A DNA stretch of 64,000 nt from Methanosphaera sp. ISO3-F5. GTDB taxonomy: Archaea > Methanobacteriota > Methanobacteria > Methanobacteriales > Methanobacteriaceae. The position numbers and the translations under genes are program-made. Below the pieces are notes generated by a model. The model saw nothing but the letters and a program-made list of their open reading frames with translations, made no database searches and was not told the DNA's origin. The DNA lies in assembly GCF_034480035.2 (NCBI RefSeq), contig NZ_CP118753.2:855001-919000 (forward strand), written 5' to 3'. Of the stretch, positions 15,505 through 26,313 are shown in pieces. The stretch's first letter is position 1. Every line of letters begins with the position of its first letter.

Positions 15505-15554
15505 TTTATATAGTTTGTTTTCAAAATATAAATATACCCATAGGGGTATAGGTA
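15505..15554 (+). promoter_or_regulatory. Metal-type promoter: TATA box plus dyad operator
   Basis: TTTATATAG (15505-15513) is followed after 19 bases by TACCCATAGGGGTATAGGTA (15535-15554), placing the operator over the expected RNA start, the position for a repressor. The same operator, reversed, recurs before feoA (24440-24461) and twice more at 24734 and 25198. The feoA link suggests control by iron or another metal through a DtxR/MntR- or CsoR-like repressor; the regulator itself is not in the window. Confidence 0.6.
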
Positions 15555-15579
15555 TAATAAATTTAAGAGGTACAAAAAA

Positions 15580-15681
15580 ATGAACGAAATCATCCTAAAC
15601 AACATATCATTCATATTCATAATGACACTAGTACTGATAAGCTTCATACTAGTAGTAAAAACAAGCAATAAACCATATTAA
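15580..15681 (+). CDS. 33-residue single-span membrane peptide
   Basis: MNEIILNNISFIFIMTLVLI begins a peptide with one hydrophobic helix (about 9-26) and a short basic tail KTSNKPY. AGAGGTA lies 10 bases before the ATG, and the promoter upstream shares its operator with feoA, so it is likely a real, metal-regulated small protein. It could be a small subunit of a ferrous-iron or other metal transporter encoded elsewhere; this is inference. Its size and lack of motifs prevent a family call. Confidence 0.55.
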   Translation: MNEIILNNISFIFIMTLVLISFILVVKTSNKPY

Positions 15682-24138: not shown

Positions 24139-24363
24139 TTATTCTAGTATGATTGCTTCGGCTTCGTTTTTTCTTAGTGCTAATGAGAATCCTTGTATTC
24201 TTATTTCTACTGGGTAGTTGAGTGGTGCTCTTCTTTCGAGTTTTACTGGTATTCCACTTATTAGTCCCATTTCTCTTAGGTGTTTTCCTAGGGTTCCTTT
24301 TATTTTATGTGATTTTATTATTCCTGTTTCTCCTATTTTTAGGTCATCTACTGTTTTTGGCAT
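24139..24363 (-). CDS. feoA: FeoA-family protein
   Basis: 74 residues with the FeoA SH3-like pattern: LKIGETGIIKSHKIKGTLGKHLREMGLISGIPVKLERRAPLNYPVEIRIQGFSLALRKNEAEAIILE, showing L-x-E-M-G-L-x-x-G, and G-F/Y-x-L-A-L-R-x-x-E-A. FeoA helps the ferrous iron transporter FeoB; no feoB is in the window. A GGAGG site precedes the ATG. The promoter (24440-24491) carries the same operator found at three other places here, so metal control is likely. The two units upstream on the same strand share the promoter design but have no protein. Confidence 0.9.
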   Translation of the reverse strand: MPKTVDDLKIGETGIIKSHKIKGTLGKHLREMGLISGIPVKLERRAPLNYPVEIRIQGFSLALRKNEAEAIILE

Positions 24364-24439: not shown

Positions 24440-24491
24440 TACCTATACCCCTATAGGTATAATATATACTATGCTTTTATTAGTATATAAA
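24440..24491 (-). promoter_or_regulatory. feoA promoter with dyad operator
   Basis: Read on the minus strand, a TATA box (complement of GTATATAAA, 24483-24491) is followed after exactly 21 bases by TATACCTATAGGGGTATAGG (24442-24461), which should cover the RNA start. It differs by one base from the operators at 24734, 25198 and 15533. Confidence 0.6.
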
Positions 24492-24582
24492 TGTTTTTAC
24501 AAATCCGATTCTAAAATTCAAATTAAATATACTTAATTTAAGTTTTTTTAATTTATGAATTTAGTTTATATTATGTATTCTT

Positions 24583-24752
24583 AAAAAAATGTAATGTTTT
24601 TCAACCATTTATATTATATCTGGTTGAATTAGTTTAAATAAACTAAAATAAACATTTCCTTTTTGATTTTATTAAATATGTGATTAAAAATGATATCTTT
24701 TTTTAAGTTTTTATAATTGGAGTCAATTATATTTACCTATACCCCTATGGGT
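24583..24752 (-). ncRNA. Candidate metal-regulated small RNA, copy A
   Basis: A promoter with the feoA-type operator drives a segment of about 170 bases with no conserved reading frame. Near its end is a hairpin TCAACCA / TGGTTGA (24601-24607 with 24621-24627), followed by a T7 run on the minus strand (A7 at 24583-24589), a natural archaeal terminator. Copy B (25031-25216) has the same order of parts. A tiny frame MFILVYLN in this copy is not kept in copy B, so the product is probably RNA. Confidence 0.45.
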
Positions 24753-24785
24753 ATAATATATGATATCATAATCATACTATATAAA
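24734..24785 (-). promoter_or_regulatory. Promoter and operator of small RNA candidate A
   Basis: TATA box (complement of CTATATAAA, 24777-24785), then exactly 21 bases, then the operator at 24734-24755, identical over 21 bases to those at 25198 and 15533. Same spacing as feoA. Confidence 0.55.
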
Positions 24786-24841
24786 GATTACATCAAAAAA
24801 TATTAAAAAAAGTTAAAAAAACTTCAAAAAAATAGAAAAAA

Positions 24842-25016
24842 CTAAATCTCGATTCTAATATCATCATAAGGACATACTTTGATATGATCATTAATTTCTT
24901 CTATCTGAATGTTATGTGCATGTCCCTGTTCATAATTATCAATAAGTATTACTATGTATAGGTTTATGAAAAGTATTATATTTCTGTAATTGAAATATTT
25001 ACAAAAATTGTTATTT
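24842..25016 (-). pseudogene. Start-less open frame, possible gene relic
   Basis: On the minus strand an open frame without ATG, GTG or TTG in a suitable place ends at 24842. Its last part, LIDNYEQGHAHNIQIEEI followed by NDHIKVCPYDDIRIEI, looks like real protein, with an acidic, beta-like composition unlike random A/T-rich translation. I cannot name the family. It lies downstream of small RNA candidate B, so it may be what is left of a gene once driven by that promoter. Confidence 0.35.
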
Positions 25017-25030
25017 TAAATTAATATATT

Positions 25031-25216
25031 AAAAAAAGTGTTGTGTTTGGTCAACCAATTATTTAGTGGATGTAATAAATTTTGGTTGATCATTAGTCTT
25101 AATAAACTAAAATAAATGTTTTGTTTATTTTATTAAATATGTGATTTTAAATGATATTATGTTTTTGTTTTTATAATTTTTGGAGTTAATTATATTTTAC
25201 CTATACCCCTATGGGT
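25031..25216 (-). ncRNA. Candidate metal-regulated small RNA, copy B
   Basis: This is a diverged duplicate of copy A: the operator, the block TTTATTTTAGTTTATT (25106-25121), the hairpin TCAACCA (25051-25057) with TGGTTGA (25083-25089), and a T7 run on the minus strand (A7 at 25031-25037) occur in the same order. The loop is longer than in copy A. No reading frame is shared. The flanks also match on the far side of the TATA box, so the whole unit was duplicated. Confidence 0.45.
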
Positions 25217-25249
25217 ATAGTATATAGTATGACAACAACACTATATAAA
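25198..25249 (-). promoter_or_regulatory. Promoter and operator of small RNA candidate B
   Basis: TATA box (complement of CTATATAAA, 25241-25249), exactly 21 bases, then the operator at 25198-25219, the same as at 24734-24755. Confidence 0.55.
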
Positions 25250-25311: not shown

Positions 25312-26313
25312 TTAACAAATCCTAACAAGAGTCTTACCCTTAGAACCACCATTAAAAACCTTACCAAGAGCATCATTAACATGATCCAAATCAAAAACCT
25401 CATCAACAGAAACATCAACACGATTCTCATCAAAAATACTGGAAACTCTTTCTAACTGATCACCATCAGACTCAACAAACAAGAAATAATACTTCTGATT
25501 ATTCTTACCAGCCAAACGATCATACTTTAACCCAGCAAACTCAAACAACAACCTCTTATACAAAGGCATATTCATCCTAGAAGCAAACTCACCATTAGGC
25601 ATACCCTTCAAAGAAACCAGAGAACCACCCCTTTTAAGAATCTTAAACTCTTTCTCTAACTCACTCTCACCAAGAGTATCAATAACATAATCAACATTAT
25701 CTAAAATCTCAGAATAATCCTCACTCTTATAGTCAATAAACCTATCAACACCTAACTTAGTAACATGATCCTCGTTTCTCTTACTACCACTAGTAATAAC
25801 ATTCAAACCCAAACTCTTTGCAATAGGTATAGCCATCGCCCCAAAACTACCCGTACCACCAGAAATAAACACACTCTCACTCTTTCTAACATTCAACAAA
25901 TCAAATGCCTGAAAAGCTGTAAGAGCAGTTAAAGGAACACAAGCAGCCTCATCAAAATCCAAATAATCAGGAATCATTGCAACAGCATTTTTATCCACAC
26001 TAACAAATTCAGCAAATGCACCAATATTATCCAGTGGAAGCCTACAATACACCCTATCACCAGGTTTAAATTCGCTAACATCACATCACACTTCTTCAAC
26101 AATACCCGAACATTCATTACCTAATACTAATGGCAGATTATATGGTGTTATAAGTTTAACTTCACCTCTTATTATCATATTATCAAGAGGGTTTACTCCT
26201 GCATATTTTACTTTAATCAAAACATCATCATTACCAACAAGGGGTGTTGCTACTTTATCTATTCTAAGTTCACATCCATTCTTATCATACTTATCTAATA
26301 CAGCGGCTTTCAA
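25312..26313 (-). pseudogene. Zinc-type alcohol dehydrogenase / quinone oxidoreductase with in-frame TGA
   Basis: The frame is a 333-codon medium-chain dehydrogenase: KYAGVNPLDNMIIRGE (N-terminal catalytic fold), LVLGNECSGIVEEV, then a TGA at 26086-26088, then DVSEFKPGDRVYCRLP, NAD(P) loop SGGTGSFGAMAIPIAKSLG (about 155-173), and the end GKTLVRIC. The family normally has Gly at the stop (EVG-x-V-x-x-F-K-x-G-D), so a GGA to TGA change explains it; both sides stay in one frame. Zinc ligands are absent, fitting a quinone-oxidoreductase subtype. Unless read through or mis-sequenced, it is inactive. Confidence 0.85.

Follow-up and report, generated by a model that had tools for sequence, protein, structure and literature searches.

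What is encoded by two tandem, gene-less units that stand immediately upstream of a feoA gene on the minus strand of the genome of a gut methanogen, Methanosphaera, and what controls them? The window in which they lie, meaning the whole 64-kb stretch of DNA that was analysed, had previously been interpreted from its letters alone, and this sequence-only reading described in each unit a TATA box and operator, with a hairpin and T7 run further on. Every one of these elements is present. The explanation developed here is that units A and B would be tandem genes for RNAs of ~150-190 nt, belonging to a Methanosphaera-specific family and governed by a metalloregulator of the CsoR type.

Layout of units A and B and of the feoA promoter

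Unit A, on the minus strand like all features of this section, begins with the TATA box TTTATATA at 25242..25249, followed by the CsoR-type operator TATACCCATAGGGGTATAGG at 25200..25219. The TATA box is recognised by its sequence and by the TATA-22 nt-operator architecture common to 31 sites in the genus, the operator by its sequence matches and its linkage to the single csoR gene. The predicted small RNA body extends from the operator end to the T7 end (25031..25199), has no conserved frame and contains a match of 34 bits (25155-25032) to R1, a covariance model built from four copies of the family. Alignment of the copies places element E1 (ACTCC) at 25182..25186 and element E2 (ATCATTTAAAATCACATATTTA), mostly unpaired on folding, at 25134..25155. 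Folding and covariation define hairpin P3, TCAACCA...TGGTTGA, at 25051..25089, with arms at 25089-25083 and 25057-25051. The T7 run at 25031..25037 is a likely transcription terminator, with T7-T9 standing after the hairpin in the aligned copies.

Unit B repeats this layout, with a TATA box at 24778..24785 (sequence and genus-wide architecture), a CsoR-type operator at 24736..24755 (sequence matches) and a predicted RNA body from operator end to T7 end at 24583..24735, covered by an R1 match at 24694-24583 whose 85 bits come from a copy that was itself used in building the model. The alignment places E1 (ACTCC) at 24719..24723 and E2 (ATCATTTTTAATCACATATTTA) at 24673..24694. Folding, R1 and covariation define a three-helix domain at 24594..24655, in which P1 (ATGTTT/AAACAT) joins 24655-24650 with 24599-24594 and encloses the P2 hairpin (24646-24629) and the P3 hairpin (24627-24601, arms 24627-24621 and 24607-24601); the T7 run follows in the sequence at 24583..24589. 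Each unit thus has its own promoter and U-tract, and the two are 75% identical over 110 nt of their promoter regions and 77-81% in their 3' parts.

The feoA paralogue (24139..24363, 74 aa, PF04023) is itself under a CsoR-type operator, TATACCTATAGGGGTATAGG at 24442..24461, identified by sequence matches, with a TATA box at 24484..24491 identified by sequence and the genus-wide architecture. The other feoA paralogue is preceded not by a CsoR-type operator but by the box TTAGGTATACCTAA (L249-L252, L254, L255, L260), presumably of the form expected of a DtxR-type (iron-type) box. The promoter design that the units had been said to share with feoA is real, while its label of feoA-type should be read as CsoR-type, since the feoA of the window is not the iron-box copy.

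Neighbouring stretches of the minus strand carry further features. Between the units, a short open frame at 24842-24980, ending in LIDNYEQGHAHNIQIEEINDHIKVCPYDDIRIEI, looks like a protein remnant and gave no convincing Pfam match. At 25312-26313, a gene resembling zinc-type alcohol dehydrogenases carries, in this genome, a single in-frame TGA, its frame being uninterrupted in G010, a genome of the same species.

The operator, its repressor and the metal signal

Within the 64-kb window, the operator CCTATACCCCTATRGGTATA matches with zero mismatches at 24442, 24736 and 25200 and, on the other strand, at 15533, against 0.01 such matches expected by chance. The whole genome holds eight distinct sites at up to two mismatches, with none for the reversed-pattern control, and operator sites occur in all 20 Methanosphaera genomes, where the reversed controls give few or none. 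In a search that permitted a spacing of 21-23 nt, the succession of TTTATATA, exactly 22 nt and the 18-nt operator core was found at 31 places in 13 Methanosphaera genomes; the TATA-22 nt-operator unit was absent from the 119 other Methanobacteriaceae genomes searched. The site TATACCCATAGGGGTATA is a C/G-tract dyad with TA flanks, a form that, judged by sequence, is as expected for DUF156/CsoR repressors; the target site of RcnR is TACT-G6-N-AGTA (PMC7055735). In several species, the TATA-to-operator spacer before feoA holds a further CsoR-like dyad, TATACTATAGGGGGTATAG (L034, L036, L039, L253; clearest in the last three), which suggests double operators.

A search with PF02583 returned exactly one protein in 19 of the 20 Methanosphaera genomes, the exception being a genome that is 72% complete. 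The distance from csoR to the operator downstream of it is 96-240 bp in 14 genomes; in two more, G005 and G008, csoR is followed by a variant with one extra G. By this linkage, the operator is assigned to the genome's single CsoR-family repressor, and the earlier proposal that the units carry a metalloregulator's operator is borne out. The csoR gene follows an rpiA-like gene and lacks its own operator (L098/L006, G000:C1:1645750-1646310, and relatives). The operator downstream of it is usually followed by a membrane peptide of 39-46 residues with the motif HIYE.KPIY, and three peptides of this type stand in series behind csoR in G012.

The same linkage bears on the proposal that A and B are an archaeal counterpart of PrrF or RyhB, that is, iron-starvation small RNAs under a Fur- or DtxR-type repressor. 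The tandem arrangement and the position beside a feoA gene agree with that proposal, but it is now very improbable: the operator is tied to the genome's only CsoR-family (DUF156) protein rather than to a Fur/DtxR gene, the DtxR-type box is found at the other feoA paralogue, and the operator is common to efflux ATPases.

Across the genus, operators precede the feoA paralogue, P1B ATPases, an operon of a DUF6110/DUF1490-like gene with a CtpC-like ATPase, and several peptide families of 28-60 residues; the operator of units A and B is common to csoR-linked and efflux genes. Within the window, it recurs at 15533..15552 on the plus strand before a 33-aa membrane peptide ORF starting at 15580. Here, a TATA box and CsoR-type operator precede the peptide MNEIILNNISFIFIMTLVLISFILVVKTSNKPY (15533-15680, plus strand), and similar peptides of 30-34 aa stand behind the operator in G014, G009 and G019. 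On the downstream side of the operator, G005 (L117) and G008 (L126) share another gene-less, operator-driven stretch, AAACTCCATAAAAATCATAA ... TGTG(T)GGGGAACATGG and similar, which so far shows no structural relationship with units A and B.

The alignment of Methanosphaera CsoR with solved CsoR and InrS chains retains the ligand set C34, H59 and C63, has Pro at the position of M. tuberculosis CsoR Tyr35, and presents an N-terminal Cys4 in every complete N-terminus read. Given this Pro and the Cys4, Cu(I) and Ni(II) are both possible signals; ligands alone do not decide the metal of a CsoR-family protein (review, PMC7055735). Since CsoR-family proteins release DNA upon metal binding, the RNAs are expected in metal excess and not in iron starvation, and the known CsoR/RcnR/InrS regulons consist of a metal-derepressed DUF156 repressor with efflux ATPases (PMC7055735). 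Whichever of the two metals acts, the predicted control logic is derepression by its excess. In the absence of excess metal, CsoR would occupy the operator just downstream of the TATA box and over the presumed start, blocking initiation, which would occur inside the operator, 22 nt past the TATA box. A rise in Cu(I) or Ni(II) would cause CsoR to leave the operator, and the RNAs would then be made together with the efflux ATPases, the feoA paralogue and several small membrane peptides. The RNA is probably a metal-stress regulator made in copper or nickel excess.

The RNA family and its structure

The units belong to a family of ~10 copies, seen in seven species among the 20 Methanosphaera genomes. 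Copies lie upstream of feoA in G000, the genome of the window (A, B), G010 (A, B), G015, G014, G007 and G019, and away from feoA in G000 (C), G007, G008 and G019. E-values with R1 reach 1e-12 for the four seed copies, and the same-species B copy scores 84 bits. Copies outside the seed (G007a, G007b, G000C and A) score 34-42 bits, with the two G007 copies and G000C at 39.7-41.9 bits, and the diverged G019b scores 33 bits. Among 139 Methanobacteriaceae genomes, R1 found matches in Methanosphaera only, and Rfam gave no family above threshold for the units, including no PrrF/RyhB family match. The search of related genomes thus points to a real RNA family which, on these comparisons, is lineage-restricted and new and lies inside a CsoR regulon. 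Viral contigs searched for feoA relatives yielded none.

In the aligned copies, E1 (ACUCC, or ACUCA in some) lies ~10-20 nt behind the operator, and E2 is a near-invariant 22-nt segment, AUCAUUU(AA/UU)AAUCACAUAUUUA. The P1 helix, AUGUUU...AAACAU, encloses hairpins P2 and P3 and is followed by at least seven U; the hairpin originally noticed is one arm of this larger structure. The copies of G008 and G019b keep the hairpin and U-tract, with a diverged 22-nt segment. The third and more diverged copy of the window's own genome, G000C (G000:C1:1210171-1210082), has a degenerate operator, TATGCCCTAGTGGGCTTAGG (L020 770-960, minus strand; G000:C1:1210070-1210260), with P2 and P3 replaced and P1 lengthened to ~10 bp.

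Covariation, one of the checks proposed earlier, supports the 3' domain. In the R1-based alignment, a sample of related sequences, 89.2% of cells are paired, compared with 81.1% in shuffles, and nine of 19 pairs changed on both sides against 4.0 in shuffles; these figures lean toward the structure because the alignment was fitted to it. None of 500 shuffles reached the observed pairing or the count of double-sided changes, and sliding the partner by one column reduced pairing to 42-43%. Among the changes visible by eye, the base of P3 switches from A-U to U-A and a pair within P3 from C-G to U-A. Minimum free energy folding of the 3' domain alone gave a common three-way junction in five of the seven copies, with z from -2.7 to -5.5, while P1 pairs otherwise in some full-length folds. 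RNAalifold recovered only P3 from a MAFFT alignment, since that alignment is structurally poor, and the model-based alignment remedied this. E2 is ~67-94% unpaired in six of the seven copies measured. In unit A, P1 is broken, with three of six pairs formed, so that A may be weakened or altered. Selection on the RNA is implied by the compensatory helix changes and by a 22-nt segment that hardly varies between species.

The sequence-only reading had named a peptide frame conserved in related genomes as a refuting finding; such a frame was looked for among the copies, and none is shared. That the units are decayed protein genes or operator duplications devoid of RNA function is hardly credible: a second G014 unit (operator at L036:1201) does look degenerate and P1 is broken in unit A, but no remnant frame is common to the copies. 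Operator conservation, covariation, the U-tract and the missing conserved frame together uphold the view of a gene-less, small structured RNA, and an RNA gene under CsoR-type control is highly probable.

It is considerably less plausible, and on balance improbable, that A and B form a regulated leader or attenuator of feoA, in which transcription usually stops at the T7 runs and reads through when needed. Their position in series directly upstream of feoA would suit such a role, as would the single copy immediately upstream of feoA in G015, G014 and G007 and the presence in the same regulon of a ~390-nt leader before the DUF6110-ATPase operon. Yet a separate TATA box and operator serve feoA, the G008 copy follows a tRNA cluster and has no feoA beside it, and G019a, G007b and G000C also lie elsewhere. 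The existence of copies away from feoA (G008, G019, G000) argues for a free-standing RNA gene.

The ~390-nt leader was at first sight a second gene-less operator unit (G000 1426015; also G010, G014 and G015, with a related unit in G007), a candidate set aside once it proved to precede the DUF6110-ATPase operon. At L271 (G000:C1:1426000-1428500), a CsoR-type operator is followed by the conserved leader (TTACCCCT...AAGGAGTAA...AAGGAGTAA), then by a DUF6110/DUF1490 (PacL-like) gene and a CtpC-like P-type ATPase with YSC in place of the CPC motif. This leader may itself be a regulatory RNA.

Mode of action and relation to known systems

Within the RNA, the 3' three-helix domain would provide stability and termination, with transcription stopping at the hairpin and U-tract, and the largely unpaired 5' half, containing E1 ACUCC and E2, would most likely pair in trans with the ribosome-binding sites of target mRNAs and lower their translation. 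Pairing with start regions is favoured because E2 is conserved and mostly unpaired and its complement, UAUGUGAUUUUAAAUGAU, is shaped like a ribosome-binding site with a start codon, whereas the loops are not conserved; base pairing at ribosome-binding sites is thus plausible from the sequence. The differing loops had earlier suggested that the two units could have different targets, a view that finds no support, as the loops vary freely across species. The 22-nt single-stranded segment is near-identical in A and B, which would probably give them shared targets and a difference in dose or stability.

Searches for targets gave no candidate that passed a control. Matches to the E2 complement were ~2x the reversed control, the complement resembling ordinary ribosome-binding sites, and no gene stood out as common across species; matches to the E1 complement were at or below control. 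The hydrogenase subunit gene mvhD matched in five of five species searched, and hdrC in two. Although the best candidate, mvhD was rejected as evidence for pairing after two controls: its site is equally conserved in species with no detected RNA copy (G005, G009, G018), and its duplex energy with A and B ranked only third of 31. In G009 (L035) and G019 (L143), the operator drives a peptide, MNEYNIFERSRWTQ..., whose leader in G009 carries two elements of the small RNA family, ACTCC and AAATCACATATTTAATAA. Since the 5' module also occurs in this peptide-mRNA leader, part of its conservation could serve a role other than trans pairing.

Metal-induced structured RNAs that bind a protein (e.g. an Lsm protein, a nuclease or a metalloregulator) instead of mRNAs would account for the strong covariation of the 3' domain, an A/U-rich unpaired 5' half suited to a protein ligand and the failure of every pairing target in a control. 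This alternative is nevertheless unlikely: the stretch of highest conservation is linear and unpaired, and its complement looks like a translation start region, features that fit pairing better. The whole explanation, a Methanosphaera-specific small RNA pair under CsoR that acts by trans pairing, is rated as rather probable at the most.

PrrF1/PrrF2 of Pseudomonas and RyhB of enterobacteria resemble the units in being metal-regulated, paired or paralogous, equipped with a terminator hairpin and likely to act on mRNAs. They are repressed by Fur-iron and made in iron starvation, whereas the present units have a CsoR-family repressor and would be expected in metal excess, the opposite polarity; no sequence or structure relationship was found between them. 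Another archaeal small RNA tied to metal, through zinc transporter genes, is s479 of Haloferax volcanii (PMC8155600), which is encoded beside CRISPR-cas with a maturation linked to Cas6; the abstract of that paper mentions neither a metalloregulator operator nor tandem copies. The methanogen small RNA sRNA162 of Methanosarcina mazei (PMC3510493) acts on mRNAs via separate domains and is set apart, by description rather than by sequence, through its other archaeal order and gene context.

The Methanosphaera regulon shares with the CsoR/RcnR/InrS regulons (PMC7055735) the C-H-C ligands, the C/G-tract operator with TA flanks and the efflux ATPases, but extends to non-coding RNA genes, numerous tiny membrane peptides and a feoA paralogue, and its csoR has no upstream operator. 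PacL (DUF1490) with CtpC ATPases in Mycobacterium (PMC9374683) has its parallel here in a small DUF6110/DUF1490-like protein encoded directly before a CtpC-like ATPase, both within the CsoR-type regulon; the present operon differs in being archaeal, with a CsoR-type operator and a ~390-nt leader. The literature search found no CsoR regulon or CsoR-controlled small RNA described for methanogens.

It is proposed tentatively, as a possibility short of probable, that a CsoR-controlled, multi-copy trans-acting small RNA, co-regulated with tiny membrane peptides and efflux pumps, shuts down translation of chosen mRNAs during archaeal metal-excess stress; these may be, for example, those of iron-sulphur or nickel enzymes. 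If true, this would be, to our knowledge, the first CsoR-controlled small RNA in Archaea. For few archaeal small RNAs is any regulator known, and hardly one of them is linked to a metalloregulator. In the present case, sequence yields the regulator and its operator as well as the RNA structure, the paralogues and the co-regulated genes. Several families of peptides of 28-60 residues, unstudied so far and probably metal-responsive, also emerge from the regulon. Methanogens need nickel and iron-sulphur enzymes in their energy metabolism, and their response to excess copper or nickel becomes directly testable.
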